Shown piece after piece: positions 5,974-21,818 of a DNA stretch of 64,000 nucleotides. The stretch is taken from positions 1 to 64,000 of IMG/VR virus record IMGVR_UViG_3300020220_000040; one strand, given 5' to 3'. The stretch is from a virus. A program made the position numbers and the translations under genes. Numbering within the stretch: the stretch's first letter is position 1; each line of letters opens with the position of its first letter. Under the pieces are notes generated by a model. It was given only the letters and a program-made list of their open reading frames with translations, searched no databases and had not been told where the DNA came from.

Positions 5974-5987
5974 TTCTCGAGTTGAGG

Positions 5988-6013
5988 TTCAGGACGGGCC
6001 TCCCATCGCGTAG
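5988..6013 (+). promoter_or_regulatory. Phage promoter-like element
   Basis: TTCAGG at 5988-5993, 14-bp spacer, GCGTAG at 6008-6013, upstream of the GGGAGAGGAG site and ATG of the CobS-like gene. It gives that gene its own promoter although cobT-like is only 61 bases away. Confidence 0.6.
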
Positions 6014-6034
6014 ACAGGGAGAGGAGAAATCCCG

Positions 6035-7558: not shown

Positions 7559-8244
7559 TGCCCACCTCCGGTATCTATGCCGTCCGCAACAAGATCAACG
7601 GGAAGGTTTACGTGGGGAAGTCTGTAGACATCACCCACCGTTGGTGCAGCCACAAGGCTCGTCTGCGTCGAGGTGTGCATGTCAACACGCACTTGCAGCG
7701 GGCATGGAACCTGTACGGAGAGGGGGCTTTTGAATGTGAAGTCGTTCACCGGGAGAATGACAGAACCTTGCTGCCGCAACTAGAAGCCCAGTATGTGCTC
7801 GACTTCTCCGCCACAGACCCCGAGAAGGGCTACAACTTGAATGTGGTAGACACCCACAGCTATCGCGCGAGCCCAGAGACACGGGCCAAGCAGAGTGCGG
7901 CACAGAAGGCTCGACATGCGGCCCACCCTCGCACTTGCACGCCTGAGCAGCGAGCAAGGATGAGTGCGGCCCAGAAAGCTCGGGGGGCTACAGCTTCGGC
8001 GGAAACACGGGCCAAAATGAGTGCCGGCAGCAAGGGCAAGAAGAAGAGCCTCGAACATCGAGATGCTCTCATCGCCGCACATACGGGATGGGTTCCGAGT
8101 CAGGAGACTCGGGACAAGATTGGAGCAGCACATCGGGGAAGGAAAGCCAGTCCTGGAACCAGAGCCAAGATGTCGGCTACTCGCAAGGGCAAGAAGCGGG
8201 GCCCATACCGTAAGCACGCGCAAAGCGTAGAAGAAAACAAGTGA
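7558..8244 (+). CDS. Free-standing GIY-YIG homing endonuclease with NUMOD3 repeats
   Basis: 228 residues. A GIY-YIG catalytic domain fills the first ~95: GIYAVRNKINGKVYVGKS gives the GIY...YVG signature, with Arg in ITHRW and the catalytic-type Glu in LEAQYV. The rest is a series of NUMOD3-type DNA-binding repeats of the form S-xE-xRAKMSAAxK (about residues 105-220). This is the layout of phage Seg/I-TevI-like mobile endonucleases. Base composition is less GC-rich than its neighbours. It is wedged between two virion/accessory genes, and the gene downstream has a recoded 5' end. Confidence 0.9.
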   Translation: MPTSGIYAVRNKINGKVYVGKSVDITHRWCSHKARLRRGVHVNTHLQRAWNLYGEGAFECEVVHRENDRTLLPQLEAQYVLDFSATDPEKGYNLNVVDTHSYRASPETRAKQSAAQKARHAAHPRTCTPEQRARMSAAQKARGATASAETRAKMSAGSKGKKKSLEHRDALIAAHTGWVPSQETRDKIGAAHRGRKASPGTRAKMSATRKGKKRGPYRKHAQSVEENK

Positions 8245-8252
8245 GGTAGCCG

Positions 8253-8879
8253 GTGCCTTCTTTCCTCAAGACAAAGAAAGATGAAGATATGTGGGCCAAA
8301 GCCAAGGCGTTTGCTGAAGAGTCAGGGCACAAGGACGATTGGCCCTATATAACAGGCATTTGGAAACAAATGCAGGGCGAGGGTGCTTCGGCTCGGGTCG
8401 CGGATCGGTTCCTGGCCGCCTACGAACCCGGTCACCGCAAGGATGACTCTCGCGACCCCGACACCGATGGCTGGGTGAACGGCCTCGTCGAGGACTTCAC
8501 CCCCACTGAAGGTGAGGGCTCCCAGGTGCCCTTCCCCCGCGACAACCAGGGCCACCCCCTCGCCCCGCCCGACCTCGGGATCGAGAACATCCCTGGCTAC
8601 GAGTGGCACGACAAGTCCAAGGCGTTCCACTCCATCATGGAGAAGGAAGCCTCGAGCCGGACGGCCTCGATGGAGGACGAGCTTCGCTGGTGCGCCAACG
8701 AGATCGACCGAGCCAACGACATCCTTCGCGATGTCGTGCTGACCCTCGACGGCCGCCGTGATGGGGATGAGTCCATCTCGGACGTGTACGGGGCAGCGGC
8801 GGTTGTGACCCGCGAACTCTCCATGAACGTCTCGAAGAGCCTCGCGGAGGCCGAGAAGAAGCTCCGCCGGCTGGTCTAG
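8253..8879 (+). CDS. Probable virion protein with RVADRFLA motif and recoded 5' end
   Basis: 208 residues from GTG 8253. The N-terminal ~45 residues (FLKTKKDEDMW..., then a WPYITGIWKQM motif) resemble short modules seen at the ends of phage structural proteins. SARVADRFLAAY follows, matching the motif shared by several other proteins here. The C-terminal part is helical. Codons 1-46 use ATA, ACA, AAA, TCA, CAA and TTT, rare in this genome, then switch abruptly to GC-ending codons. This suggests the 5' end was replaced when the adjacent GIY-YIG gene inserted. The 3' end overlaps the convergent NUDIX gene by 4 bases. Confidence 0.75.
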   Translation: MPSFLKTKKDEDMWAKAKAFAEESGHKDDWPYITGIWKQMQGEGASARVADRFLAAYEPGHRKDDSRDPDTDGWVNGLVEDFTPTEGEGSQVPFPRDNQGHPLAPPDLGIENIPGYEWHDKSKAFHSIMEKEASSRTASMEDELRWCANEIDRANDILRDVVLTLDGRRDGDESISDVYGAAAVVTRELSMNVSKSLAEAEKKLRRLV

Positions 8880-9637
8880 CGCCTGAAGCGGTAGACCGCC
8901 GAGGGACGACCCACGCCTCCCCGCTTGCCGGGGGCAGTCTCGAGGATGCCGTCCTCGAGCATCCGGCGGAACTTCCGGTGGAAGGTCTTGGGGTCGTAGG
9001 CGGCTCCCTTGATCGCCTCGTACACCGACCGAAGCTCGGCCACGGTGAAGGTCTCGGGCACCAGGTCGAAGGCGATGGGGGAGTAGTCGATGCGACCCCG
9101 CAGCCGCTTGATGGCCGTGTCGAGAATCTGGTCGTGGTCGAAGGCGAGGGCCGCCCTACTCTCGAGCACCTCCTGGACGGACTGCCACTTCGCCTCGTCC
9201 GCATCGTCCCCAGCCGTCACGAGCGGGGCCAGCGTGGGCCTCACGAGAGCGAAGTAGGCGACCGAGATGACGCGCGTGCGGGGGTCACGCCCGGCCTTCC
9301 CGAACGTGTACAACTGCTCGATGTAGCACGAGCCGTGAGGGAGCCCCGTCTCCTCCTGCAGTTCGCGGTGGGCCGCTTCCTCCAGATCCTCCCCCTGTTG
9401 CTTCAGCCCGTCTCCGACATCGACGAAGCCGCCAGGGAACGCCCAGCATCCCCTGTAGGGGTGTCCGCCCCGCTTGATGAGCAGCACCTTCAGATCCGTG
9501 TCGATGACCGTGAAGATCGCCAGGTCGACCGTGACCGACGGCTTCGGGTAGTCCTTCGCCGTGTAGGCGGCGAGGAACTCAGCCTCGGTCATGTCCGCCC
9601 CGTCCTTGGACGAGAGCTTTCCGCTGGGATCGGTCAC
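8876..9637 (-). CDS. NrtR-like protein: NUDIX domain plus winged helix
   Basis: 253 residues. Residues ~30-170 form a NUDIX fold with a complete NUDIX box at 77-99 (G-x5-E-x7-REL-x-EETGL). Residues ~175-253 form a winged helix typical of NrtR, ending in GRPSAVYRFRR. NrtR proteins repress NAD-biosynthesis genes and respond to ADP-ribose. Many have a broken NUDIX box, but this one keeps all metal-binding glutamates, so it could also hydrolyse ADP-ribose or a related nucleotide. It closes an operon that contains NAD-consuming KptA, with the NAD-salvage genes a few kb away. Its ATG overlaps the kinase stop (ATGA). Confidence 0.85.
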   Translation of the reverse strand: MTDPSGKLSSKDGADMTEAEFLAAYTAKDYPKPSVTVDLAIFTVIDTDLKVLLIKRGGHPYRGCWAFPGGFVDVGDGLKQQGEDLEEAAHRELQEETGLPHGSCYIEQLYTFGKAGRDPRTRVISVAYFALVRPTLAPLVTAGDDADEAKWQSVQEVLESRAALAFDHDQILDTAIKRLRGRIDYSPIAFDLVPETFTVAELRSVYEAIKGAAYDPKTFHRKFRRMLEDGILETAPGKRGGVGRPSAVYRFRR

Positions 9638-11316
9638 TTCAACCTCATCGTGTACACCTTGTCGCCTCGCACGAAGGCAACCTTGCCCCCGTGCTTGATC
9701 AGGTGCATGTCGTTGCCGAGTTCCGTAGACTCCACTACCCGGATCTTGTCAGAACCGACCGAGGAGACTTCGAGCTTCTCGTCCTCGTTGAGGTGGACGC
9801 AGATCCCGTTGTCGAGGACCACGAAGTTGAGCCCGGCCGGCGTGATGTCCGACACCACCGGGCGCATCCGGTAGGTCTGGTAGTGCTCGTCGAAGATGAA
9901 GGTCAACCGGTCGTACTTGCCCTTCTTCGCACCGACGACCATCAGGAGGCGGTTGTCGAACTTGGCCTCGACCACCTTGTAGTCGTCGAGTTCGGGCACC
10001 CGGACCTGGTGGGCAAGCCCGGCAGCAGGAAACACGGAGACGAACATCGAGCCCAGGAGGTTCTGCACGAGCACCCCGTCATGCAGACGGGTGGCGTACT
10101 CCAAGATGTTGGCCGCCACCCGAGGAGACGCCACGACGTTGCTGCCCGAGTCGGTGAGCACCATCTCGATGATGCGATCTGCACTCTTGACGTAGATGCG
10201 GCCCCCGTAGGCCATCACCTGGTCGGCCTTCAGAGTGACGGGCACGTCCTTCTGTTGGGCCATGTTGTAGAGCCGGAGTTCGCCGTTCTCGAGCCACGCC
10301 ACGACAGGCTGGTTGAGCTTGGGGCTGAAGCCCACTCCACGCACCGGAGTGGGTCCCCGCACCTTGCGCCCGTTGAGGAACACGCCCTCGGGAGTGCCCG
10401 CCACCACAGCCCCGCCGTTCTCGACGAACCCGAGCACCTGTGCGGCGAAGGCCGCCAACTCGGAGATGTCGAGAGAGGCCCCGCTGAGGATGGTGCGGAC
10501 CAACACCGCCGTCGCCACGAACGTGCCGGGGTCTGCAGGCGGAGGGAGACGCTTCCCGTCCTGGAGGACGGCCTTGAACCACGCCCGGTAGCCAGGCGGA
10601 ATCACGTCCACGGGGTACACGACCTTGGGGACGGACACCGAGGGGTCGAAGATGGAGATGCACGCCTTCATCCGCTCCTCGAGCCCGTGGACGGAGGCGT
10701 GCTTGCCCTTGTAGGGGTGGATGCCGGTGAACATCTGGTACGCGACACACGCGAACGAGAACCAGTCGGACAACTCGGTGAAGTCGTGCCCCTTCACGGT
10801 CCAGTCGCGGACGGAGGGCATGATGGCGGTCGCGGGGTAGCTGCGGGTCTGGTAGCTGTCCACGTCGATGCCGTAGACCTCGGAGAACGTCCGGTCCACG
10901 AGGAAGTTCATCTCGTTGAGGTCGACGATGAGCGTGCCCGACTGGTGGATGCTCGCCACCATCGCCTGAAGGTTCCGCACGAGGGCGAGCATCTTCGGGT
11001 GGTCGAGCCCTTCCCGCTCCCGGAAGGCTCGGGTGAAGACCTGGCAGAGCGGCATCGTGTTGCCCACGAACCGCATCGTGTAGCCGAGGGGCTGGTTCGT
11101 CTTGGGGTCGAGCAACACCCGTTCGGGCTTGATCACGTTCGGGTCGCGGATGGCGGCCAACTCCGTGATCTTCCCGACAGGGAGCATCCTCCCGGGGTCC
11201 GTGTAGACCTTGAACGCGGTGGTGCCCTTGGCGTAGATCGAGCCTTCGCCGCCACTTCCCACATAGTCACGTTGTGTCAGCGTGACCGGCCCTTGCCCTT
11301 GAATATGGACGATCAC
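9634..11316 (-). CDS. Ser/Thr-type protein kinase of the TerY-P triad type
   Basis: 560 residues from GTG 11316. The kinase core has a Gly loop GSGGEGS at 20-26, catalytic Lys in AFKVY (K36), a catalytic loop VDLNEMN (D132, N137), and the metal-binding Asp in GIDVDS (D151). The unusual DLN/DVDS forms are those of kinases found with TerY vWA and PP2C partners in Ter stress systems. The C-terminal ~250 residues are beta-rich and may form a propeller-like sensor. The first 24 codons are A/T-ending and recoded, while a remnant of an alternative 5' end lies beyond the HNH gene at 11883-11954. Its stop overlaps the nrtR-like start. Confidence 0.85.
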   Translation of the reverse strand: MIVHIQGQGPVTLTQRDYVGSGGEGSIYAKGTTAFKVYTDPGRMLPVGKITELAAIRDPNVIKPERVLLDPKTNQPLGYTMRFVGNTMPLCQVFTRAFREREGLDHPKMLALVRNLQAMVASIHQSGTLIVDLNEMNFLVDRTFSEVYGIDVDSYQTRSYPATAIMPSVRDWTVKGHDFTELSDWFSFACVAYQMFTGIHPYKGKHASVHGLEERMKACISIFDPSVSVPKVVYPVDVIPPGYRAWFKAVLQDGKRLPPPADPGTFVATAVLVRTILSGASLDISELAAFAAQVLGFVENGGAVVAGTPEGVFLNGRKVRGPTPVRGVGFSPKLNQPVVAWLENGELRLYNMAQQKDVPVTLKADQVMAYGGRIYVKSADRIIEMVLTDSGSNVVASPRVAANILEYATRLHDGVLVQNLLGSMFVSVFPAAGLAHQVRVPELDDYKVVEAKFDNRLLMVVGAKKGKYDRLTFIFDEHYQTYRMRPVVSDITPAGLNFVVLDNGICVHLNEDEKLEVSSVGSDKIRVVESTELGNDMHLIKHGGKVAFVRGDKVYTMRLK

Positions 11317-11842
11317 GGTTTTGCTCCGCGTGTAGCTCTACATGACAACGCACGCAGAGGAGGATGCACTTGTCGATCTCCGCCTGGAGGCGCTGCCACG
11401 CCCATCCGTACATGCGCGAGACCGTGAACTCCTTCACTGTCGGATCGGAGTGGTGGAATACGAGGGCATCGAGGCACCGGAAATAGCCGCACTCGACGCA
11501 TTTCCCTCCTTTGTATGCGACTGCCCGTTCCTTCTGTCGTTTTGCTCGCAAAACCGATCGGCAGGCGTTGCAGACCCCCTTCCGATGACCGGCGCTGTTG
11601 TTGTGCTTCCCCAGGTAGGTGAACGCCTTGCCACAAGTCTGGCAGGTGCGCTCGGGGTTCATCGCCTCGGGATCGTGCAGCGGTTGGTGGTTCCTCGCCC
11701 CGAAAGGCGAACACTCCAGGCAGTAGATCCTGCTGCTCAGCATCCTCATCCGACCATCGACCATCACGCGATTCGGAAATGTGTTCCCACACTTCTTGCA
11801 GGTTCTCTTGCCGGGTTTGCGGGTTTTGAAGGTGTAGGCCAT
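11267..11842 (-). CDS. HNH homing endonuclease inserted at the kinase 5' end
   Basis: 191 residues from ATG 11842 (in-frame starts at 11854 and 11869 are also possible). It has four zinc-binding Cys pairs: CKKC, CLEC, CQTC and CNAC. The HNH-type nuclease core is built on CVECG, FHHSDP and CVRCHVELH. Its last ~50 bases overlap the start of the kinase gene in another frame. It interrupts an operon whose other genes are all joined by stop/start overlaps, so it is a mobile insertion. No good ribosome-binding site is visible. Confidence 0.85.
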   Translation of the reverse strand: MAYTFKTRKPGKRTCKKCGNTFPNRVMVDGRMRMLSSRIYCLECSPFGARNHQPLHDPEAMNPERTCQTCGKAFTYLGKHNNSAGHRKGVCNACRSVLRAKRQKERAVAYKGGKCVECGYFRCLDALVFHHSDPTVKEFTVSRMYGWAWQRLQAEIDKCILLCVRCHVELHAEQNRDRPYSRARAGHADTT

Positions 11843-11882
11843 GCGCGCAAGCATAGCACAGCGGAGCAACGAAAGCTATGAC

Positions 11883-11954
11883 CTCGCCGCCCGAAGCGAC
11901 GAACTCCCGCTGGGTGAGGCTGACCTCGCCCTGGCCTTGGATGACGACCTTCAT
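11883..11954 (-). pseudogene. Remnant of the original kinase 5' end (24 codons)
   Basis: The ATG at 11954 overlaps the kptA stop (ATGA), as expected of an original operon gene. The 24 codons that follow match the first 24 residues of the downstream kinase at 17 positions (shared IQGQG, LTQR and SGGE). The match stops exactly inside the Gly loop, where the HNH element begins. Codons differ at most of the shared residues, so this is not a recent duplication. It is best read as the stranded start of the pre-insertion gene. Confidence 0.8.
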
Positions 11955-12496
11955 GGCTGTGTCCGTTGGAAATACTGGGTCGGCACGGAGTCCACCAGCC
12001 AGACGTGGTTGTCGGTCTCGAAGAACTGGAACCCAGCTTCGGCCATCTCCTGCGCCCGCACCTCGAGGATCACGGGCTTTCCGTGGCGTCCCCCAACCTG
12101 GCGAGCCGTGTCGGTGGTGGCGGACAGGTGGACGTGGTGGCGGGACATCTTCTGCAGACCTTCCCTGAAGATGGCCTCGAGGAAGCGTTCAGCGGTGCCG
12201 TGGTACAGCACGGCGGGCGGGGCCTTCGGCTGGTAGCCAAGCTCCACCTCAACCGAGTGCCCCTGACGAGCACGGATTCGTGTCCCGTCCTCGTTGAACT
12301 CGAACCGCTTCTTGTTGTTGTCCGCGACGACCTGGTTGAGGTCGTCGCGGGACATCCCACGCCCCCGTTCGTCGAGTGCCTTCAGCAAGGCGTCGACCTC
12401 GACCCACCCTGCATCATCGAGGGTGAGCCCCACACTCCCGGGCTTGTGCCGCAGGATGAGGGAGAGGAACTTCGAGTGTTGGGTCACGTCAGCCAT
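11951..12496 (-). CDS. kptA: RNA 2'-phosphotransferase (Tpt1/KptA)
   Basis: 181 residues, the usual length for KptA. The family's active-site set is visible: RH at 16-17, RxRQGHS around 75-81, LYHGT at 97-101 and SRHHVHLS around 118-125. Tpt1/KptA transfers a 2'-phosphate from RNA to NAD+, giving ADP-ribose 1'',2''-cyclic phosphate and nicotinamide; some bacterial members also ADP-ribosylate nucleic-acid ends. It sits in an operon with kinase, phosphatase and an ADP-ribose-type NUDIX protein, and near NAD-salvage genes, which points to NAD-linked RNA repair or modification. It overlaps the PP2C gene by 8 bases. Confidence 0.9.
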   Translation of the reverse strand: MADVTQHSKFLSLILRHKPGSVGLTLDDAGWVEVDALLKALDERGRGMSRDDLNQVVADNNKKRFEFNEDGTRIRARQGHSVEVELGYQPKAPPAVLYHGTAERFLEAIFREGLQKMSRHHVHLSATTDTARQVGGRHGKPVILEVRAQEMAEAGFQFFETDNHVWLVDSVPTQYFQRTQP

Positions 12497-13286
12497 TGGA
12501 AACCTCTGCGCCGAGGTACATCCCGGCCACCGAGAAGTCGTCGTCGTGGTGCCAGCCCTTGGCCGCCACGTCCTTCAGGAACCGCTTCGCCCGACGGGTG
12601 AGGAACTCCCCCACGAACCCCTTGATGGCGAGCATCTCGTCGACCACGACGGGGAGGGGGACAGCCTCGGTCATGCCCGAGGTGCCCACGGGCTTGCGGA
12701 AGGAGAGGGCTCCGTCCGAGAACAGGAGCACGAGGTCGAACTGGTCCGCGTTGAACCCGTAGGAGGTCACCGGGGAGCCCCAGCCCTCGGGCCCCAGGAT
12801 GACCACTTCCTTCTCGGACACATCGTCCCCGTCGTAGGAGGTGACCACTTGCCGGGTGCCGAACTCGGTGGCGTAGCGGTCCCGTCGGGACCGGTCGAGG
12901 TCGTAGTTGGGGTAGAGCGGGGCCCCAGACGGGTAGCTCGTCGAGATGATGAGCCGTGTCCCATCCCGGCGGCGAGCGACCACCACGCCATCTCCGTGAA
13001 CCGTCACCTGCACAGAGCGCGAGGTGGGGTCCCAACGAGCCGACAGCAAGGTGGCGTCCAGCGTCTCATCCGGGAGGGCCAACACCTCCAACAGGAGCCG
13101 AGCTTGGGCCACACCGTCGGCTGGGCCGTGGATCTGGGCCATGTGGCAGATGAGGCGGGAGCCCACGTCCGTGTGGGGGGACGAGGAGCACCCGTCCGAC
13201 AACAGGATCAACCCGGACTGGGCCAGCGCGTAGTCCTGGCAGACGTTGTGCTGCTTGCCCGTAGTGAAGAAGGCGTCGGTGTTCAT
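12489..13286 (-). CDS. PP2C-type protein phosphatase
   Basis: 265 residues from ATG 13286, which overlaps the stop of the upstream gene. PP2C landmarks: QDY near the start, the metal-binding LSDGCSSSPHTDVGSRL segment, a GDG turn, FSDG in the middle, and DDFSVAG near the C-terminus. PP2C enzymes remove phosphate from Ser/Thr using two metal ions. Co-location with the kinase and a vWA protein matches the TerY-phosphatase-kinase triad, where it would reset the kinase's signal. Confidence 0.85.
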   Translation of the reverse strand: MNTDAFFTTGKQHNVCQDYALAQSGLILLSDGCSSSPHTDVGSRLICHMAQIHGPADGVAQARLLLEVLALPDETLDATLLSARWDPTSRSVQVTVHGDGVVVARRRDGTRLIISTSYPSGAPLYPNYDLDRSRRDRYATEFGTRQVVTSYDGDDVSEKEVVILGPEGWGSPVTSYGFNADQFDLVLLFSDGALSFRKPVGTSGMTEAVPLPVVVDEMLAIKGFVGEFLTRRAKRFLKDVAAKGWHHDDDFSVAGMYLGAEVSNG

Positions 13287-13798
13287 GGGGCACTCGGCTT
13301 GGGGATTTGAGCTAGGGCGGGGCTCCCGAGTTGTTCGATGAGGAGCCGAGTGAGGTCCAACAGGTTCTCGGGCCACGGCTCTCCGAGCTTCCACCACACG
13401 GGCTCGGTGGTGCCCAGGGTGTACCGCTCGAAGTGGAGCATCGTCATCGGACGCCCCTTGTCCTTCTGGAGGACGCGCGTGACCCAGCCGAGGAGTCGGC
13501 CCGCTTCCACGGTGTCTCCCACCTTCAGGTCAGCGGGAGCGATCTCCCCGTAGCAGAGGACGTGTTGTTCCCCCTGCACGAGGATGCAGTCGGTGTCGTT
13601 CCACCAGGGGGAGTCCGCCTTCGGTCCCGTGAAGGGGAGGATGGCGACCACCACCCCCGGCTCGACGGCGAACACGGACGTTCCCTCGGGGCAGTAGAGG
13701 TCCACGCCCGTGTGGATGTCGTGCTTGCGCGCCACCCCAAACGCTCCCGGAGATCCGGGAGCGGGGAACGTGCGGGCTTCCCCGGAGAGAGGCCACAT
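13283..13798 (-). CDS. M23/LytM-like domain protein, active site incomplete
   Basis: 171 residues from ATG 13798. A LytM-like beta fold is suggested by HTGVDLYCPEGTSVFAVEPG (HxGxD metal motif) and a later LHFERY strand. The second motif is normally HxH; here the first His is Met, so peptidase activity is doubtful. There is no signal peptide or membrane anchor, so it may work inside the cell or be a binding domain rather than a lysin. Both ends are coupled to neighbours by overlaps, placing it in the Ter-like operon. Confidence 0.65.
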   Translation of the reverse strand: MWPLSGEARTFPAPGSPGAFGVARKHDIHTGVDLYCPEGTSVFAVEPGVVVAILPFTGPKADSPWWNDTDCILVQGEQHVLCYGEIAPADLKVGDTVEAGRLLGWVTRVLQKDKGRPMTMLHFERYTLGTTEPVWWKLGEPWPENLLDLTRLLIEQLGSPALAQIPKPSAP

Positions 13799-14250
13799 CA
13801 GGGGCTCCTGGAGGAGACCACCTGTGCGGCCTCCGACACGTCCGTGTCGAAGCAGCACGAGCGGGTATAGACGATGCGCTCGTCCTTTCCTCCCCGACGA
13901 CGCACCGTGATCTCGATGCCTCCGCCGTACCCCGCATCGCGGCCCATGAACCCGGGGTCGGATGTCGGGACCCTACGGACGCGAACCACCTCAAACTCGG
14001 AGGTTGCTCGCGTCGGGTCCTCGGCACTGGTGTCCAGCACATGTTCGACCTTGCGCTCCCAGCCCCCTGGACGCTTCTGCGTCTCCTTCCAGTGGTGCGA
14101 ACCTCCCCGACCCCCTTGGAGCGGTGATCGGACGAGAACGAGCTTCCCGCCAGGGGTGAACCGGGTGTTGTGACAGCAATGCACGAGGTGAGCCCCGAGG
14201 ATGATGTCACCCACCTTCTCTTGGGTGGTGGTGGTGGTGGTGGTGCTCAC
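13798..14250 (-). CDS. Hypothetical protein (150 aa) of the Ter-like operon
   Basis: Starts at GTG 14250 with AGGGGG five bases upstream. The second residues are a run of seven Thr encoded by repeated ACC (a GGT-type triplet run on the plus strand, 14226-14246). A beta-rich domain follows with a CC pair near 28 and a second CC near the C-terminus. No family was recognised. Its stop overlaps the M23-like start (TGATG). Confidence 0.7.
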   Translation of the reverse strand: MSTTTTTTTQEKVGDIILGAHLVHCCHNTRFTPGGKLVLVRSPLQGGRGGSHHWKETQKRPGGWERKVEHVLDTSAEDPTRATSEFEVVRVRRVPTSDPGFMGRDAGYGGGIEITVRRRGGKDERIVYTRSCCFDTDVSEAAQVVSSRSP

Positions 14251-14263
14251 GGAGCCCCCTCTT

Positions 14264-14998
14264 TCAGAAGGTGAGGGCCTGCGAAGGGCCGCCCGTGCCG
14301 AGAGCCTGGCTCTGGCTGCTGATGGACTTCGAGACGAAGGCCGCGAGCTTCGCGAGCCGCTTCTCGTCCGCCTCACCGATGTTCACGAACTGGGTGAACC
14401 CGGCCTGGGTGGCGAAGTCCTGGAGCATCTGGGCGAGCATCGGGTCGGTGACGTTGACCCCGATGAGGATGCTCACGATGGACTCGAGAGCCTCGGAGGG
14501 GACGACGCGCTCGAGGGACTTCTTGACCTCGTTGACGGTCATCTTGCCCGCGTTGTTCCCGCCGTCGGTGATGACGAACACGATGCCGTTGGCCGTGAAG
14601 TCGTTCTGCTGGAGGTCGCGACCGTAGCGGGCCACGGCATCCACACAGTCCACGGAGGCGTCGTACAGAGCCGTCGAGCCGCCCGCCGGGATGGTGTTGT
14701 CGTAGTCGCCGGGGTTGCAGTCCTGGAGGAGCTTGAACCCGTGGACCTCGGTGAGGAGGTGGTCGAACCGGGTGTACCGGAGCATCAGGTTGTCGGCCCG
14801 GGGCGAGTGGCGGCACGCCTCGACGATGGCCTTGATGGCCTTCTCCTCCTGGCGGGCGAACCCGGCCACGGAACCGGAGCAGTCCACGGTGAGGCCGACA
14901 AGGGTGTACTCGCCGGCTCCGAGCTTCGAGATGTCCACGGCGGAGAACCCGAACGTGGAAGCCACAGGGCCGGTGGCGTCGGCAGAGAACTTGGGCAT
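14264..14998 (-). CDS. TerY-like vWA domain protein
   Basis: 244 residues from ATG 14998. It is a single vWA domain with a complete MIDAS: DCSGS after GLTV, Thr in GGSTALYD, and Asp in FVITDGGNN. Stand-alone vWA proteins of this kind (TerY) partner PP2C and kinase genes in Ter systems and are thought to be metal-dependent scaffolds. It is the first gene of the leftward operon. A possible -10 GATATA lies upstream on the minus strand in the short gap to the endonuclease gene at 15054. Confidence 0.8.
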   Translation of the reverse strand: MPKFSADATGPVASTFGFSAVDISKLGAGEYTLVGLTVDCSGSVAGFARQEEKAIKAIVEACRHSPRADNLMLRYTRFDHLLTEVHGFKLLQDCNPGDYDNTIPAGGSTALYDASVDCVDAVARYGRDLQQNDFTANGIVFVITDGGNNAGKMTVNEVKKSLERVVPSEALESIVSILIGVNVTDPMLAQMLQDFATQAGFTQFVNIGEADEKRLAKLAAFVSKSISSQSQALGTGGPSQALTF

Positions 14999-15053
14999 GG
15001 TCGTGACTCCGGTAAAGCACCTATATCGCAACGGGTGTTAGCGACGGAGGTGT

Positions 15054-16013
15054 GTGGTGGGTGGTAGAAGTTGGACGTTGGGTGAAGTCGAGGGGTTCTT
15101 CCGAAAAGCCGGATGTGAACTCCTCTCGGTTGAGTACACGGGGTGCAACCAGAGGCTTCGCTACCGATGCGGATGTGGAGTGGAAGCCGAAACAGTGTTC
15201 CGAACCTTCAAACACAAGGTTGAAAAGGGTGTTCGTCGTGGTTGCGAGCATTGCGCGATCGAGCGGATGCTGGAGACCACGCGAGAAAGAAACGGCGGGC
15301 AACATCACTTTCAGACTGACGACTTCCTCCGTCGTCGGGGGGAGTCGAACCTTGCCCGGTTTGGTGTGGCAAACGTTCTTCAGAGTGCCGCGATCAAGCA
15401 AAAGCGGGTGGAGACGGTGCGTGCGCGCTACGGGGTTGATTCGGTGAGTCAGGTGCCCGAGATACAGCAACGACAACGAGAGGGCTTCCGGGCGAAGTAC
15501 GGTGTGGAACACTTCCTCCAACATCCAGAATCGGCTGCAAAGTTCCGTCGGACATTGGTGGAGCGATACGGGGCCCCGAGTCTTGCTTTTGTAAGTCGAC
15601 GCTCCTCCCACGAAGCACAGAATTTCTTCGGGCTCCTGTTTGACAGGCTTCCCAAGGAACACCATGAGAAGTGCTACTTCTCCCCCCACACGCGGGAATT
15701 CAACGTCTGGAAGGACGGTGCCTACTACAAGTACGACTTCGTCCATTCCCGATTGAAGAAGGCCATTGAGTACAACGGATCCCGGTTCCACCCACGTCCT
15801 GAGCAAGACGCGGACGAGGTCGGGTGGTGCTTGTTCCGACCCAACCGCACCGTCCGCGAGGCCCGCGAGTACGAGGAGCACAAGCTCGGTGCCCTCCGTG
15901 CTCGTGGGTTCGATGTCATGGTGGTATGGGATCATGAGGTGAAGCACGACAGGGACTCCGTCATCGCCCAGTGTCTCGCTTTTCTGCTTACGCCAGAACC
16001 TCATCGGAGTTGA
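15054..16013 (+). CDS. EDxHD/Vsr-like homing endonuclease
   Basis: 319 residues from GTG 15054 (GTG 15057 is possible), with GGAGG just upstream. The N-terminal region has a Cys cluster (CGCG, CEHC). Repeated NUMOD-like modules RYGVDSVSQVPE and KYGVEHFLQHPE follow. The C-terminal ~110 residues look like the Vsr-related nuclease fold, with YKYDFVHSRLKKAIEYNGSR and the following H and E/D residues. Such proteins are free-standing homing endonucleases in phages. It lies opposite the surrounding operons, between terY-like and pncA, and its 3' end overlaps pncA by 26 bases. Confidence 0.8.
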   Translation: MVGGRSWTLGEVEGFFRKAGCELLSVEYTGCNQRLRYRCGCGVEAETVFRTFKHKVEKGVRRGCEHCAIERMLETTRERNGGQHHFQTDDFLRRRGESNLARFGVANVLQSAAIKQKRVETVRARYGVDSVSQVPEIQQRQREGFRAKYGVEHFLQHPESAAKFRRTLVERYGAPSLAFVSRRSSHEAQNFFGLLFDRLPKEHHEKCYFSPHTREFNVWKDGAYYKYDFVHSRLKKAIEYNGSRFHPRPEQDADEVGWCLFRPNRTVREAREYEEHKLGALRARGFDVMVVWDHEVKHDRDSVIAQCLAFLLTPEPHRS

Positions 16014-16890
16014 CGACACGCATCCCCTTCGGCTGCATCTCCTTCAGGAAAGCATCTCCGAGGAAGTCGAATCCCCCGACGTTCGAGCAGCAGTCACGGA
16101 TGAGCCACATTTTCTCGACGTACTTCGGGTTCGTGAATGCCGAAGCAATGTCCTTTCCCGTTGAGGCCACGCAGTGGGACAGCGCCTCGCCCGTGAACAG
16201 GATCACGTCGGCGTCCTCGAGGGTCTGGACGAGGCGGGTGTTGACCTGGGTCGCCGGGTCGGCCGGGTCCGGCACCTCGGCCATGACGCCGGAGAAGTGC
16301 TCGGTCCAGGGGTTGTTGCCCTTGACGACGTAGTTGACGCGGCCGATGAACTCACGCTCCCACCACTTCAGGGCATTCGCGAGTTCGGGGACGACGCCCC
16401 AACCCCAGGTGCCGACCACGCAGTGCTCGGTCCAGACGATGTGGGGGTAGCGGCCACGGGCCGCGAGGGCCTGCAGGTAGCCGAACGAGCCCTTCCCGGT
16501 CGGGCCGCCCTGGTGGAGGAACGAGGGGATGGTGGTGACGTACTCCTCCTCGGTCGGGGACATGCCGAAGGCGTTCGGGCTCGAGCCGCCGGGGATGAAC
16601 TTCACGACGCGGCGGCCGTCCGGGTGGATGCCGAGGCAGGTGAACGGGGCGGGCTCGGCACCGTCCGAGGCACGCTTCCACCAGCGGGGACGCTCGATGC
16701 CGACGGTCTGGTGGGAGTCCATCGTGACGTGGATGTCGTCGATCTTGCTGCCCAGACGGCGGACCATCTTGGCGAGGCGGTTCATGTCCTGGTCGGCACC
16801 CGGAACGACGAGGGCACCCTGGTTGCCGTGGCCGTCGTCCCCGATGCAGAAGTCGTTCTGGGGATCTACCACGAAAAGATGCAAGCGCAT
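15988..16890 (-). CDS. pncA: Nicotinamidase-like enzyme (isochorismatase fold)
   Basis: 300 residues, longer than typical PncA because of central loops. Key residues: Asp in VVDPQNDF (D9), the metal-site MDSHQ (D58, H60), TEHCVVGTWG, and the nucleophile in ALSHCVAST (C240). Nicotinamidase converts nicotinamide to nicotinate, feeding the nicotinate phosphoribosyltransferase upstream. Codons 1-9 and the last ~60 codons are enriched in A/T-ending codons (TTG, CAT, CTT, GTA; TCA, GGA, ATT, GCA, AAA), unlike the middle. Homing endonucleases abut both ends, so both ends may have been rewritten. Another isochorismatase-family hydrolase is the alternative. Confidence 0.8.
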   Translation of the reverse strand: MRLHLFVVDPQNDFCIGDDGHGNQGALVVPGADQDMNRLAKMVRRLGSKIDDIHVTMDSHQTVGIERPRWWKRASDGAEPAPFTCLGIHPDGRRVVKFIPGGSSPNAFGMSPTEEEYVTTIPSFLHQGGPTGKGSFGYLQALAARGRYPHIVWTEHCVVGTWGWGVVPELANALKWWEREFIGRVNYVVKGNNPWTEHFSGVMAEVPDPADPATQVNTRLVQTLEDADVILFTGEALSHCVASTGKDIASAFTNPKYVEKMWLIRDCCSNVGGFDFLGDAFLKEMQPKGMRVVNSDEVLA

Positions 16891-16893
16891 GTG

Positions 16894-17745
16894 CTACTCC
16901 TTCGGAAGCAAGTGCTTCCAAGTGCGGTTGTGGACGATGGCGGCCACCGTCCCGGGGGCGATGTTGAAACGTTGGGCGAGCGACACCTGTGCTTCGCCTT
17001 CCTTGAAGGCGGCTCGGATCTGAAGGACATCTCCGTCTCTCAACTTGGAGAGATGGTGTCCCGATCCCCGCTTGCGCTTGGTGATCAGGCTGTCACGGTG
17101 AGGCACCGACTTCTGCGGAGGTCGAGACACGGCATCTTCCGGCGACCACCCGTTCTTGAGCCGGTATTCCAACGACTGGACAGTGATGCCGACCTCCTCC
17201 GCCCACTGTGTGAAGGGCTTGGTGACACCTTCGACGGTGAGGAACCTCGTGGAGGAGGTGTTGCGGGCCTGTTCTTTGGGTGTGGCCCACCGGACGTTGT
17301 GGGGCTCATAGTTCCCGTTGTTGTCGATGCGATCGAGCGAGTGTTTCGGGGAAGGTCGAGGCCCCATATCTGCGAGGAACTGATCGAAGCTCTTGTCCCA
17401 CGCCGCACACACCTGAGCCCGATTCCCATAGAGGTAGAAGCTCTGGTTCCTCGGATCTGAGCACCTCCGACGCATATTCATCCAGATGCGATACTCGGGG
17501 CGGTAGCTGCGGGGGAGCGGGCTTTCCGTTGGGAGATGGGTTGAAGCACCCACTTCCGCCAAATCAACGGTGGGCACTACCTGAGCCCACGCCCCATACT
17601 TCTGTGAGAAGAATCCGATGGGACAGACTTCCACACCTTCCCGCACGAACGAGTCCGCGAGAACTACAGCATCTCGGACGTGCGCCGTTCGGGCTTTGCG
17701 GGATGGGGCGGAAGTCAGTTGCACGAAAGTCCCTCTTTTGAGCAT
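16894..17745 (-). CDS. HNH homing endonuclease with C-terminal helix-turn-helix
   Basis: 283 residues from ATG 17745 (GGAGG 10 bases upstream). The central HNH domain carries HSLDRIDNNGNYEPHNVRW, preceded by the YRIWMNMRRRC segment common in phage HNH proteins. The C-terminus has two HTH-like segments for site recognition. It stands between nadE and pncA, where the operon would otherwise be coupled. The nadE stop is still followed by a TGATG that may be the stranded original pncA start. Confidence 0.9.
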   Translation of the reverse strand: MLKRGTFVQLTSAPSRKARTAHVRDAVVLADSFVREGVEVCPIGFFSQKYGAWAQVVPTVDLAEVGASTHLPTESPLPRSYRPEYRIWMNMRRRCSDPRNQSFYLYGNRAQVCAAWDKSFDQFLADMGPRPSPKHSLDRIDNNGNYEPHNVRWATPKEQARNTSSTRFLTVEGVTKPFTQWAEEVGITVQSLEYRLKNGWSPEDAVSRPPQKSVPHRDSLITKRKRGSGHHLSKLRDGDVLQIRAAFKEGEAQVSLAQRFNIAPGTVAAIVHNRTWKHLLPKE

Positions 17746-17776
17746 TGTGTGAAGCCTCCGTAGGGAGACTATCACA

Positions 17777-18802
17777 TCAGACCGGAAGCTCGTTGGTGAG
17801 GATGCCCGCTTTGACCAACGACGCGCGGTCACCGAGGGCCGGGCAGTTGGGGTTCATCTTGTGGCGGGTGGCCGCCTCGACCCGCCGGGCGTTCGTGAGG
17901 AGCGTGGTGACCACGTTCTCGGGGATGTTCGCGAACATGGACAAGCGGGGGGCGACCTCGTTCAGGCTGAGGAAGGCCAGGGACTCGGAACTGTCCCCGA
18001 ACAGGACTTCACCGGCCCTCCCGTCGGTCCCGTCGCAGAAGCGGTGCAGCCGCTCGATGAGGCCGACGTTCTTGTAGGCCCCCGTCTCCACGTCCACGTA
18101 GGAGTAGAACGGGATGCCACAGCCCTTGAGGCCGAGGTAGGACGCGATCTCCTCCTCGTCGTTGTGCTGGTCGCCGACGCCCCACAGGTCGGGGGACGGA
18201 CGGGCGGTCAGGATGGAGCGGGGGACACCGAGGGCGATGCCCAACTGGAACACCTCGCCCTTCGACAGCATCGAGATCGGGTTGGAGTCGACCTCGCCGT
18301 CGCCGCCCTTCTGGTAGAAGCGGAGGACACGGTCCTCGTCCTCGTTGCCCGTGCCGTGGCGGATGCCCCCGCCCGAGAGGCGGTTGGCGGCCCGACCCCA
18401 GGGGGCACGGAGGGTGGAGCGGATGGAGCCGAGGATGGTCGGGTCCTTCTTGATCCGGGTGAAGATGTCCGCCTCGGAGTACCCGGCCCGCGTCATCGCG
18501 GTGAGCATGGTCTGGTACAGGGTGTCGAACAGGAACGTGCCGTCGAACTCGATGAGCTTGACCCCGAACGCCTGGGCACACTCCCGAGCCCGAGCGAGAG
18601 CGTCCGGGTTGGAGTTGATGCCGAGGAAGGCTGCGGTCACGTTCTCGGGGCCGAGAGCACGGGAGAGGAGCCCGAGCATCACCGCCGAATCCACACCTCC
18701 GGAGAGGTCCAGTTCCGCCCGGGTCTGACCTGCCTTCTGGTGCATGTCGCGGATCGCCGCGACGCGGTTGTCGATGAGGGCCTGCGGGTTGAGGACGGGC
18801 AT
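17777..18802 (-). CDS. nadE: NAD synthetase (ammonia-dependent type)
   Basis: 341 residues. The PP-loop LSGGVDSA lies at 33-40; later motifs HGTGNEDED and DLWGVGDQHNDEEE match the NaAD and metal-binding regions. No N-terminal glutaminase domain is present, so it should use ammonia. It amidates nicotinate adenine dinucleotide to NAD, the last step of the Preiss-Handler route. Its ATG overlaps the TAA of pncB, so the two are translationally coupled. Confidence 0.9.
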   Translation of the reverse strand: MPVLNPQALIDNRVAAIRDMHQKAGQTRAELDLSGGVDSAVMLGLLSRALGPENVTAAFLGINSNPDALARARECAQAFGVKLIEFDGTFLFDTLYQTMLTAMTRAGYSEADIFTRIKKDPTILGSIRSTLRAPWGRAANRLSGGGIRHGTGNEDEDRVLRFYQKGGDGEVDSNPISMLSKGEVFQLGIALGVPRSILTARPSPDLWGVGDQHNDEEEIASYLGLKGCGIPFYSYVDVETGAYKNVGLIERLHRFCDGTDGRAGEVLFGDSSESLAFLSLNEVAPRLSMFANIPENVVTTLLTNARRVEAATRHKMNPNCPALGDRASLVKAGILTNELPV

Positions 18803-20289
18803 TACTGCCTCCGGGTGTTGATGGAGTGCATACGCGAAAGCCGCAAGTTCTGAACCAGAGTCTGAGTGGCGGGGCTCAAAGCGAGTCCCGGCTTCCGAGC
18901 GGCGAAGGATTGGGCTTCCCTTGCCGTGAAGTGAACGTGGCTGGGGATTCGGTCCGCCCCAGAGAGCCGCTCGAAGTCGCGAGACATCTCCTCGCCTTCT
19001 TGGGCGACGATGCCGGTGGGGCCTTGGTACTCGGCCGAACCGAGACGAGGGCGGTACAGCACCGGCTGACCGGGGATGGACTCTTTCCCCGCTCCGGGCT
19101 CATCCCCGAACTTCATGGTCGGGGTCGGGCCGCTCTGCGTGAGCTTGTAGACCGCCGCCACCCGGTCGCGGGTGAGCGGGTCGTTGGGGGCCTTCACGAT
19201 GTAGCCGCCGTAGCCGTAGAGCACGTCCTCGGCGGGGACTTCGAGCATCTTCCGCAGCGTCTCGAACTCCTCGGTCATCTCCTGGTTGAAGGAGTCCTCG
19301 AGGATGAACCGGGGACGGATGCCCATCCCACGAGCCTTCATGACCGCGTAGATGAACTGGGTGCGCTTGTCGCCCGAGTCGAACCGCACGAAGTCCCGAC
19401 GAGACGGGTCCTCGGCGATGAGAGCGAACGCTTCGGGGAGGCCCGAGTCGATGGTGGAGAAGGTGTCGAGCAGGAAGCTGGTCGGGCCCGCGACACGGTC
19501 TCGCATCGCCCGGAAGGCAGCCGCGTCCGACCCGAACCGCTGGACGTGCTCGTGGCCCATGGTGCCGACAGGCGTGAGGCCGAGTTGCTTCGCCAGGTAG
19601 ACGTTGCTGGTGGCCTGGAGCCCGGCTTCTTTGGCGGCGGACAGAGCCGCGAAGTGTTGGAGGGGGCACGCCACCGAGCGCATCCCCACCTCGAAGATGC
19701 GGGTCGGGTCGCCGACCGCCTCGATCAGCCTACGAACGCGAGACTGGACGTGCTCGGTGTACGAGGCGGTATCGACGGTGATCTCGACCTTGGACTTGAA
19801 GTGGATGGCGTCGAGCGTCTCGAGGATGATGCGCTTCTGCTCGTCCGAAGTGACGGTCTTCACGACCTCGGCGAGTCGCTGCGGGTCGGTGAAGGCGAGG
19901 GTGGCGATCTGGATGCGGTAGTGGAACTGGAGAGCGAGGGGCTCGAGCCACGACACGAGGGCCGAGGGGCCCGTGACCGTGAACACGGGCTCACGGTCGA
20001 AGAACCAGGTCCCCTTGGGCAACGCCTTGATGGTGATCTGGCCTTCCTGCAAGGCAGTGAAGAAGGCCCCGCCCATCGGGTACGTCCCGTCCAGGAACTC
20101 CACGTCCTCGCGGAAGGCCCTCCCACGGCACGGACCCGGAAGGAGCTTCCGAATCTCCTCCTCGACATCGAACGGGAGGTAGTGCGGGCCGCCCTTGCGG
20201 TGGGAGTAGTAGAAGGTCTCGGTGCGAAGCGGGAATCCCGCCTCGGCCATCGAGAACTTGTATCCATCTGTTTCCAGAACGCCGGGCAT
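18802..20289 (-). CDS. pncB: Nicotinate phosphoribosyltransferase
   Basis: 495 residues, normal for the family. PncB-type features: TDGYKFSM at the start (7-14), GTMGHEHVQRF around 242-252 with the His that is phosphorylated in PncB, LLDTF, and RFDSGD at 302-307. The opening and the GT-x-HE box favour nicotinate over nicotinamide as substrate. It makes NaMN from nicotinate and PRPP. It is the first gene of the NAD operon. The 112-base leader upstream contains TTGACT and GGGTAGTTAG on the minus strand as a possible promoter. Confidence 0.85.
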   Translation of the reverse strand: MPGVLETDGYKFSMAEAGFPLRTETFYYSHRKGGPHYLPFDVEEEIRKLLPGPCRGRAFREDVEFLDGTYPMGGAFFTALQEGQITIKALPKGTWFFDREPVFTVTGPSALVSWLEPLALQFHYRIQIATLAFTDPQRLAEVVKTVTSDEQKRIILETLDAIHFKSKVEITVDTASYTEHVQSRVRRLIEAVGDPTRIFEVGMRSVACPLQHFAALSAAKEAGLQATSNVYLAKQLGLTPVGTMGHEHVQRFGSDAAAFRAMRDRVAGPTSFLLDTFSTIDSGLPEAFALIAEDPSRRDFVRFDSGDKRTQFIYAVMKARGMGIRPRFILEDSFNQEMTEEFETLRKMLEVPAEDVLYGYGGYIVKAPNDPLTRDRVAAVYKLTQSGPTPTMKFGDEPGAGKESIPGQPVLYRPRLGSAEYQGPTGIVAQEGEEMSRDFERLSGADRIPSHVHFTAREAQSFAARKPGLALSPATQTLVQNLRLSRMHSINTRRQ

Positions 20290-20401
20290 CTGCTTCTTCC
20301 TGTCGGGGTGTCCGAGTTAGTGTCACCGTTGCCGCTAACTACCCGAGCCGGAGAAAAAGTCAAACCCCCGGGCGCAAGAAATCTGAAGCACCTACCGGGC
20401 G

Positions 20402-20668
20402 TCAGCCCTCTTTACGACGTAGAACCTGAAGATCCCACGGGTGATACCACGTCGGGACATCCGGCTCCGCCATCACGTAGACGTGCTGGTCTGCGCTGTA
20501 GACGTTCCCGCGAACTGCGAGGACTTCGTACTCTGCCCCGACATCCTGTCCCCGGACGACACGGACGACGTCGCCCACGCCAGGGATGGTGAGTAGGGAA
20601 CCCGCGAACCGGTGCTTCAGGGTGCGATTGTCGATGGCCTTGAGCATGTCATCGCGGGATTTGGACAT
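20402..20668 (-). CDS. Small beta-barrel (KOW-like) hypothetical protein (88 aa)
   Basis: ATG 20668 is chosen because AGAGG stands 5-6 bases upstream; a GTG at 20674 is less suitable. The middle (GDVVRVVRGQDVGAEYEVLA) looks like a KOW/SH3-type strand-turn pattern, and the C-terminus ends WYHPWDLQVLRRKEG. Possibly nucleic-acid binding; function unknown. It diverges from the deoxynucleoside kinase gene. Confidence 0.65.
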   Translation of the reverse strand: MSKSRDDMLKAIDNRTLKHRFAGSLLTIPGVGDVVRVVRGQDVGAEYEVLAVRGNVYSADQHVYVMAEPDVPTWYHPWDLQVLRRKEG

Positions 20669-20707
20669 TCGCACCTCTACCCCTCTACTCGGGAGCCTTT
20701 GTCAGTC

Positions 20708-20715
20708 GGTAGGGT
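20708..20715 (+). promoter_or_regulatory. GGTAGGGT motif upstream of deoxynucleoside kinase
   Basis: One of five GGTAGGGT/AGTAGGGT copies that sit just upstream of rightward genes in this window. It may be a -10 type element. Confidence 0.35.
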
Positions 20716-20733
20716 ACCGGACCGGAGGCTGCT

Positions 20734-21435
20734 ATGGGGCAAGTCGTAATCGTGGAAGGGTTGATTGGTGCCGGGAAATCCACCCTCACGCAGGAGCTTG
20801 GGGCGGCCCTCGGTCCCAACACGCTGACGCTCATGGAGCCCGACGAGAAGGACGCGGCCAACCCCTACCTGTCGGACTTCTACGGGGACAAGGAGCGGTG
20901 GTCGTTTACGATGCAGGTGCATCTCCTCGGTGCCCGGTACAAGATGCAGCTTGCTGCCCAGTGGCACGCCATGTCAAACCGGGGTCACGCCTGTCTCGAC
21001 CGTTCGTTCTACGGGGACACCTGCTTCGCCCGGATGATGAATCGCACGGGCGAGATCAGCGACCGTGAGTTCGAGACGTACCGCATCATCTACCAGTCGA
21101 TGACGGCCTCCGTGCTCCTCCCCAGTGCGTGCGTCCGACTCCGGGTCGACCCGAAGATCGCGGCGGAGCGCATCCAGCGTCGAGCTTCGGAGCGGGAGGG
21201 TCGTCGTTCGGAGTTGACCATCGACCTCGGCTACCTCGAGTCGTTGGAGAAGGAGATCGACGCCACCGTGGACGTGTTGCGGCAGCAAGGCGTCAAGATC
21301 ATCGAGGTCCCCTGGTCCGAGAACCGGGGGTCCGCCGAGGAGCGGGCGGAAGGTGTCCAGGCCATCGCGGACCGGATCAACGAAGCGACGGTCCCGGACC
21401 TGTTCCTCCACTTGCACCGCCGAGTTCACCAGTGA
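20734..21435 (+). CDS. Deoxynucleoside kinase
   Basis: 233 residues. P-loop GLIGAGKS at 9-16; the substrate-site DRS motif at D89; an Arg-rich lid (RIQRRASEREGRR). This is the dCK/dGK/TK2-type family that phosphorylates deoxynucleosides with ATP. With the RNR and the phage's other nucleotide enzymes it would raise dNTP supply. The ribosome-binding site is CCGGAGG. Its TGA overlaps the GTG of the next gene. Confidence 0.85.
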   Translation: MGQVVIVEGLIGAGKSTLTQELGAALGPNTLTLMEPDEKDAANPYLSDFYGDKERWSFTMQVHLLGARYKMQLAAQWHAMSNRGHACLDRSFYGDTCFARMMNRTGEISDREFETYRIIYQSMTASVLLPSACVRLRVDPKIAAERIQRRASEREGRRSELTIDLGYLESLEKEIDATVDVLRQQGVKIIEVPWSENRGSAEERAEGVQAIADRINEATVPDLFLHLHRRVHQ

Positions 21436-21818
21436 GTTCAGACGGAGACCACGAGGTCGTCGTTCTGGAAGTCCTCGTGCGTCGGAACAAGACCTCGGGC
21501 CAGGTGGACTCCATCCACCGGCCGCAATCCGAGGCGGATGAGAAGCTCCTGTTGTCGTGGCCGTCTGGTGGACTGGAGCAGGCAGCATTCGCGCTCCTGG
21601 TCGAGGCGGCTCGGAAAGAAGCTCTGCTCAGTGTCATCCTGGATGCCTCCAAAGACCCCCAGTGGCGGGCACGATTTCAGAGCGCCACTCCCGATGAACA
21701 AAATGCGGCGATCACCCGTTTGGCCGCCATCTTGCGCCAGGGGATGAAGGGGACACTGGAGCGCATTTCCGAGGCGGCGCTACGAGAGGCGCTGGAGGGT
21801 GTTCTACACTCCGGTTAG
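21432..21818 (+). CDS. Hypothetical protein (128 aa)
   Basis: Starts at GTG 21432, overlapping the kinase stop (GTGA). The sequence is a short beta segment (EVVVLEVLVRRN) followed by long helices with many Ala and Arg. No known family. It is coupled to the kinase gene, so it is likely expressed with it. Confidence 0.65.
   Translation: MSSDGDHEVVVLEVLVRRNKTSGQVDSIHRPQSEADEKLLLSWPSGGLEQAAFALLVEAARKEALLSVILDASKDPQWRARFQSATPDEQNAAITRLAAILRQGMKGTLERISEAALREALEGVLHSG

Follow-up and report, generated by a model that had tools for sequence, protein, structure and literature searches.

The stretch of DNA considered here, in the following called the window, comprises 64,000 nucleotides (positions 1 to 64,000 of the IMG/VR virus record IMGVR_UViG_3300020220_000040) and makes up most of that 68,540-bp record. 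Between positions 20289 and 8876 its minus strand carries genes of nicotinamide adenine dinucleotide (NAD) synthesis together with genes for a vWA protein, a PP2C-like phosphatase, a Ser/Thr kinase and an NrtR-like regulator. Four of the genes (those for nicotinamidase, vWA protein, PP2C and kinase) form the core with which this report deals. An earlier reading of this DNA from its letters alone (the original prediction) had placed the NAD genes, the triad of vWA protein, phosphatase and kinase, kptA and nrtR at these positions, all on the minus strand, and gene calling and profile searches have borne this out. The M23 peptidase gene, an unknown open reading frame (ORF), three nuclease-like inserts, a palindrome at 20316–20339 and the absence of nadD were not mentioned in it. 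Stop and start codons overlap at four junctions (pncB/nadE by 1 nt, M23/PP2C by 4, PP2C/kptA by 8 and kinase/nrtR by 4), which argues for an operon; the sole plus-strand gene inside the block, for a DUF7487 nuclease, lies between pncA and vWA. In the order in which they follow each other on the minus strand the features are:

20316–20339, minus strand: operator-like palindrome, half-site motif unique in the window, 27 nt upstream of pncB; candidate NrtR site.
18802–20289, minus strand: pncB-like gene for a nicotinate phosphoribosyltransferase of 495 amino acids (aa); NCBIfam TIGR01513 at 1.3e-31, relatives at 38–63% identity.
17777–18802, minus strand: nadE-like gene for a NAD synthase of 341 aa without glutaminase domain; PF02540 73 bits, TIGR00552 over the cut-off.
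16894–17832, minus strand: HNH-like ORF between nadE and pncA, its 5' part overlapping nadE; no Pfam match, locus L018 has a 52% relative in the same place.
15988–16890, minus strand: pncA-like gene for a nicotinamidase of 300 aa, core gene; PF00857 31.5 bits, over the cut-off.
15054–16013, plus strand: DUF7487/DUF559 nuclease-like gene between pncA and vWA; locus L013 has a 56% relative in the same place.
14264–14998, minus strand: gene for a vWA-domain protein of 244 aa, core gene; invariant metal-ion-dependent adhesion site (MIDAS) and AlphaFold2 (AF2) fold.
13798–14250, minus strand: unknown ORF inside the block, called from its coding score; no family match.
13283–13735, minus strand: M23 peptidase gene, a passenger; PF01551 36 bits.
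12489–13286, minus strand: gene for a PP2C-like phosphatase of 265 aa, core gene; PF13672 27.4 bits, over the cut-off.
11951–12496, minus strand: gene for a KptA/Tpt1 RNA 2'-phosphotransferase, an occasional passenger overlapping the PP2C gene; PF01885 173 bits, 6.9e-51.
11267–11869, minus strand: HNH-like ORF upstream of the kinase gene, recognized from translations; a relative lies just upstream of the kinase gene in locus L046.
9634–11316, minus strand: gene for a Ser/Thr kinase (residues 1–260) with a C-terminal beta-propeller (282–560), core gene; catalytic residues, AF2 and Foldseek.
8876–9637, minus strand: gene for an NrtR-like Nudix and winged-helix regulator; PF00293 and PF21906, NF050029 at 1.4e-53.

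NrtR, KptA, NadE, PP2C, the PncA-like protein and M23 were all found by Pfam when the domains were checked against profiles, and the PncB, kinase and vWA assignments needed evidence beyond Pfam. The PncB-like protein scores under the Pfam cut-offs but matches TIGR01513. The profile of its family matches the solved nicotinate phosphoribosyltransferase 2f7f at 7e-24 and a NAMPT-type entry at 2e-6, and by its sequence the protein appears nearer to the nicotinate phosphoribosyltransferases than to the NAMPT type. In the family of the PncA-like isochorismatase K190, C240, D58 and H60 are invariant and D9 is found in all rows but a truncated one; the Asp-Lys-Cys triad, D-x-H and the HC..G motif are thus kept, and a further metal His varies. 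The family profile matches the nicotinamidase 2h0r at 7e-13, its nearest solved relatives being nicotinamidases.

The vWA protein has no Pfam match, and its MIDAS residues D39, S43, T109 and D145 are invariant in the family. Its AF2 model (predicted local distance difference test, pLDDT, 89) matches vWA/I-domain folds. The C-terminal helix and tail (SISSQSQALGTGGPS) are rich in Ser, with Ser/Thr more than 90% conserved at six positions among 162 sequences, which makes this part a candidate substrate. In the PP2C family the acidic metal-site motifs are invariant; a sequence search with its profile brought up no protein of solved structure. The kinase, under the Pfam cut-off, has G22G23 of the Gly-rich loop, K36, D132, N137 and D151 conserved in its relatives. 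Its AF2 model (pLDDT 93.4) shows a kinase domain joined to an all-beta C-terminal propeller, and Foldseek matched it to kinases and to propellers. In the alignments catalytic residues are retained in all four core families.

Related loci were collected by profile scans with vWA and PncA followed by tabulation with hidden Markov models, which yielded 88 distinct viral and 80 distinct cellular loci. Nicotinamidase, PP2C and kinase genes lie on the strand of the vWA gene within 10 kb of it in 85 of the 88 viral loci and in 48 of the 80 cellular loci, many cellular contigs being short. Conversely, the loci returned by the PncA scan mostly also held the triad. In the first relatives found, viral contigs of up to 619 kb, the order pncB-nadE-pncA-vWA-PP2C-kinase-nrtR and the strand are kept at 38–65% identity, and across viral and cellular contigs order and strand of the module are kept at 25–65% identity. 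The genes for vWA, PP2C and kinase are adjacent on one strand in related loci; in the window they are interrupted by the unknown ORF, M23, KptA and an HNH-like ORF. At L010:13283–15384 the vWA and PP2C genes and the kinase domain have been lost together, and pncA, the propeller part (residues 406–560) and nrtR remain. The pairwise distances of the four core proteins correlate (r 0.57–0.76), as high a correlation being reached in 0 of 500 permutations.

Linkage to NAD genes was assessed from Pfam matches within 10 kb of the vWA gene in 50 large viral records, with uniform placement as the null. NadE is found there in 20 of 32 cases (2.95 expected), NAPRTase in 13 of 26 (2.43 expected) and a NadD-type fold in 21 of 47 (3.95 expected), that is 5–7 times above chance. 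The linkage of NadE and NAPRTase stays at p≤1.5e-5 when records selected with PncB are left out, these p-values being indicative since the null is uniform and the related phages count only in part as independent cases. Recurrent neighbours of the module are glutamine-dependent NadE, NAPRTase, phosphoribosyl pyrophosphate (PRPP) synthetase, NAD kinase, ADP-ribosylglycohydrolase and a nucleoside deoxyribosyltransferase-like protein. The single island of NAD genes and kinase/phosphatase/vWA triad that the original prediction had seen in one virus is therefore real and conserved in phages and bacteria, and NAD and Ter-like genes do occur together in related phages. Among the cultured phages of INPHARED there was no close match to PncB, vWA or kinase; vWA, kinase and nicotinamidase are encoded only by the huge phages of Al-Shayeb.

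That the module is a phage system as such, as had been predicted, is not borne out. Compact NrtR-PncA-vWA-PP2C-kinase operons are present on contigs assigned to Acidobacteriota, Myxococcota (including the isolate Paraliomyxa miuraensis), Burkholderiales (Comamonadaceae), Bacteroidota and Patescibacteria, and the core is present on one contig of an archaeal metagenome-assembled genome (MAG), so that a phage-only system is rejected. For example, on one Parcubacteria contig the module is followed by a NAPRTase-like ORF (recognized by eye) and a glutamine-dependent nadE (Pfam), and on a Variovorax megaplasmid genes for a macro-domain protein, a Nudix protein, an NrtR-like protein, a "cysteine hydrolase", a vWA protein and NAD kinase stand in one stretch. 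The genes of these carriers are currently annotated as "hypothetical protein" or "cysteine hydrolase". The kinase tree shows at least six switches between viruses and cells on well-supported branches, a count that is approximate because some MAG contigs may themselves be viral. In the best explanation, which as a whole has about an even chance and is set out below, bacteria and huge phages have passed the core between them as a unit. The module of locus L286 (Variovorax sp. SRS16 plasmid 2, NZ_LR594667.1) lies beside genes for RNase HII, AlkB, RecX and peptidyl-tRNA hydrolase; this megaplasmid could be a phage-like or chromid-like element.

The NrtR-like protein contains a Nudix domain (75.6 bits) and an NrtR winged helix (47.5 bits), both over the cut-offs, and matches NF050029 with 182 bits, below the equivalog cut-off of 400 bits. 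The palindrome upstream of pncB is 24 bp long and reads GTTAGCGGCAACGGTGACACTAAC on the minus strand. It overlaps the −10 region of a promoter-like sequence with TTGACT, which was read by eye; a scan of 8000–21500 for consensus promoters found nothing above chance and did not flag this region. The motif GTTAG-N12-15-CTAAC occurs once in 64 kb, namely in the palindrome, with 0.01 occurrences expected. In the 5 Mb of DNA examined there are nine such sites, five of them just upstream of a module gene, such zones making up 6% of the bases. The same half-sites are found upstream of bacterial nrtR/pncA genes; the best of the bacterial sites, GTTAGTGT-N7-ACACTAAC, are built 8+7+8 like the mycobacterial NrtR box, a proven site that the regulator MsNrtR leaves in the presence of ADP-ribose (PMC6800001). 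Like the module, NrtR regulons place a Nudix and winged-helix regulator beside NAD genes; the palindromic site of about 23 bp upstream in these regulons would have its counterpart in the candidate palindrome. To our knowledge, kinase, PP2C and vWA genes are not included in the NrtR regulons described.

How might these parts work together? The chances appear about equally divided for and against the island being a NAD-salvage operon under an ADP-ribose-sensing repressor, with a reversible phosphorylation switch contributed by the four-gene core. Whether NAD is broken down by phage-triggered NADases or in ordinary turnover, nicotinamide and ADP-ribose are set free. From what is known of the family, ADP-ribose would make NrtR leave the palindrome ahead of pncB, and the operon would be turned on. 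By homology, PncA would convert nicotinamide to nicotinate and PncB would form nicotinate mononucleotide, from which host NadD, or a phage NadD encoded outside the contig, would make nicotinate adenine dinucleotide and NadE finally NAD. Both products of NAD destruction would thus feed the response, since ADP-ribose would derepress the operon and nicotinamide would be the substrate of the invariant enzyme. With the vWA protein as adaptor, kinase and PP2C may determine how far a target is phosphorylated; the Ser-rich C-terminus of the vWA protein is the first candidate substrate, and the propeller is a likely sensing or docking domain. Such a switch would adjust either salvage or some host process to the NAD status, and in a phage the module would keep NAD up during infection. 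Phages probably use the operon to rebuild NAD during infection, and a guarding of NAD is plausible; the target of the switch and a role against host defence we infer. With a little less confidence, falling just short of an even chance, we propose that nicotinamidase, vWA protein, PP2C and kinase together make up a prokaryotic signalling system not described so far, which links the breakdown of NAD to a reversible phosphorylation of proteins, has spread over many phyla and is carried repeatedly by huge phages. What is known of the control of bacterial NAD metabolism concerns mainly transcription (NrtR, NiaR, NadR). If the proposal is true, a kinase/phosphatase/adaptor module tied to a nicotinamidase would add post-translational control to NAD homeostasis, both in many bacterial phyla and in phages several hundred kb long, and huge phages would have a concrete route to withstand NAD-depleting immunity.

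Several points weigh against this interpretation. NadD is absent from the 68.5-kb record (no PF01467 match), which may be a fragment, so that the complete Preiss-Handler set (PncA, PncB, NadD, NadE) is not encoded in it; in five phage relatives NadD is found inside or just after the block and the whole set is therefore present. The palindrome is imperfect, with one of its half-sites degraded, and is clear in some loci only. In roughly half of the viral loci no further NAD gene is recognized within 10 kb, and the core may therefore work independently of the other pathway enzymes. And the module is without a direct tie to NADase defences.

Best placed among the alternatives, though rather unlikely, is that the block serves as auxiliary metabolism and supplies more NAD for the replication of the phage; the phospho-triad would then regulate the salvage enzymes, and NAD-depleting defences would play no special part. 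Rebuilding of NAD by phages is known from NadV/NadM and NARP1 (PMC9503650, PMC12774641), and a survey of viral NAD genes from 2022 names only NadV, NadM and NadR (PMC9503650). Like the module, NARP1 (Namat/Adps) and NadV/NadM of phage KVP40 are phage-encoded, but they use nicotinamide directly, whereas the module has the deamidating Preiss-Handler route with a regulator and a kinase switch. NadM of the KVP40 type has no counterpart in the record of the window (no PF01467 match). Preiss-Handler genes in phages are not new, since phage X1 carries pncB, nadM, nadD and nadE, which were read as auxiliary genes (PMC13384950). The same reading is favoured here by the occurrence of the operon in bacteria without obvious defence context and by PRPP synthetase and NAD kinase as neighbours. 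It leaves unexplained why nicotinamidase, which recycles a product of NADases, should be the constant partner and PncB and NadE variable ones, and why ADP-ribosylglycohydrolase and macro-domain proteins are neighbours. In the open-access literature we found no paper joining Preiss-Handler genes to a kinase/PP2C/vWA core. The module joins two known kinds of system and is possibly a system of its own.

It is improbable that the triad is a TerY-P-like device for defence or superinfection exclusion, which adjoins NAD genes because NAD metabolism is a battleground and does not work jointly with them. TerY-P is antiphage and consists, as in the module, of a vWA protein, a PP2C-like phosphatase and a Ser/Thr kinase encoded together (Gao 2020 as cited in PMC7699616; Anantharaman 2012 as cited in PMC11090510). 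The TerY-P kinase ends in a zinc ribbon or an oligonucleotide/oligosaccharide-binding (OB) fold, whereas in its AF2 model the kinase of the module ends in a beta-propeller. When the proteins of the window were compared with PADLOC there was no TerY match at E≤1, and the PP2C model was matched at only 0.014; the TerY model is a weak test because E. coli YegL, the control, reaches it at only 0.032. Of the TerY-P-like triad that had been predicted, the three kinds of gene on one strand stand, and membership in TerY-P is rejected on account of the missing TerY match and the propeller. A kinase/phosphatase defence borne by phages does exist: the prophage system KKP (kinase-kinase-phosphatase) (PMC11341870) resembles the module in its control by Ser/Thr kinase and phosphatase but has two kinases, no vWA protein and no nicotinamidase, the block of the module having one kinase. 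The kinase of the module also has a weak similarity to the defence kinase PD-T4-6 (E 5e-6). In phages and bacteria alike, the constant fourth partner that distinguishes the module from TerY-P is nicotinamidase, and the module is linked to NAD synthesis genes; a stand-alone triad beside unrelated NAD genes is weakened by this constancy. The E. coli genes for YegI, PphC (YegK) and YegL are the same three kinds in one neighbourhood. YegI is a clear relative of the module kinase (hhalign 99.1%, 1.5e-18), the relationship being confined to the kinase domain, and YegL and PphC are weakly alignable with the vWA protein and PP2C. Unlike the module, the E. coli genes have no nicotinamidase or NAD genes nearby. 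For orphan triads of the YegI/TerY-P type the module provides a hypothesis of function.

Less probable again is that the isochorismatase-fold enzyme is not a nicotinamidase but cuts another amide or signal molecule, the core being a separate signalling system with a NAD-like cue. The enzyme scores under the NCBIfam equivalog cut-off for nicotinamidase (18.8 vs 174), an Arg (IERP) stands in the window in place of the third metal His that most relatives have, and the loci without other NAD genes would fit such an enzyme. Against this stand the conserved triad and HC..G motif, the solved nicotinamidases as best relatives, the strong linkage to NAPRTase, NadE and NadD, and NrtR as partner. Chance clustering of unrelated accessory genes, which the mobile nucleases and the M23 gene scattered through the copy in the window might suggest, has a negligible probability and is rejected, because order and strand are kept on viral and cellular contigs at identities as low as 25%, nearly all viral loci have all partners and the linkage to NAD genes exceeds uniform placement.

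KptA had been predicted to be part of the module as an arm for RNA repair. The protein itself is well identified (259.2 bits against the NCBIfam equivalog for RNA 2'-phosphotransferase, cut-off 239), and in the window as well as in G007, L008 and L212 it lies within the block or beside it. Its linkage is not significant: of the 50 large viral records six have KptA, one of them within 10 kb versus 0.27 expected (p=0.24), and no RNA ligase was recognized in the window. KptA is therefore incidental to the module and is rejected as an integral arm in general. The M23 peptidase was not found in related loci.

Nuclease-like genes sit at matching junctions of the module in different phages (window 16894–17832 and L018:12938–13825; window 15054–16013 and L013:13761–14666), and the conserved operon thus seems to be a recurrent target of homing. 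Upstream of the HNH-like ORF that precedes the kinase gene there is a second, diverged copy of the first ~24 codons of this gene (MKVVIQGQGEVSLTQREFVASGGE; 11954–11880 versus 11316–11245, minus strand), as if a homing endonuclease had brought with it part of the kinase gene of another phage. LAGLIDADG/intein-type stretches are present in an SbcD-like phosphoesterase (window 44220–46454) and in a terminase-like protein (L002:4914–7913); the last 4.5 kb of the record also encode a terminase-like protein with an intein-type domain.

Two further pairings of genes were seen at module loci. An ADP-ribosylglycohydrolase gene adjoins the module at L018:19995–21260 and in four cellular loci, and a CobT-like vWA protein is encoded together with a CobS/MoxR-like AAA ATPase at 3361–7222 on the plus strand of the window, a pair that stands beside the NAD module in several relatives too. 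Finally, a motif resembling RVAxRYL is found near one end of five otherwise unrelated ORFs of the window (8370–8879, 22217–24013, 57824–58222, 58927–59616 and 62441–63643; 0.04 expected) and is possibly a packaging or processing tag.

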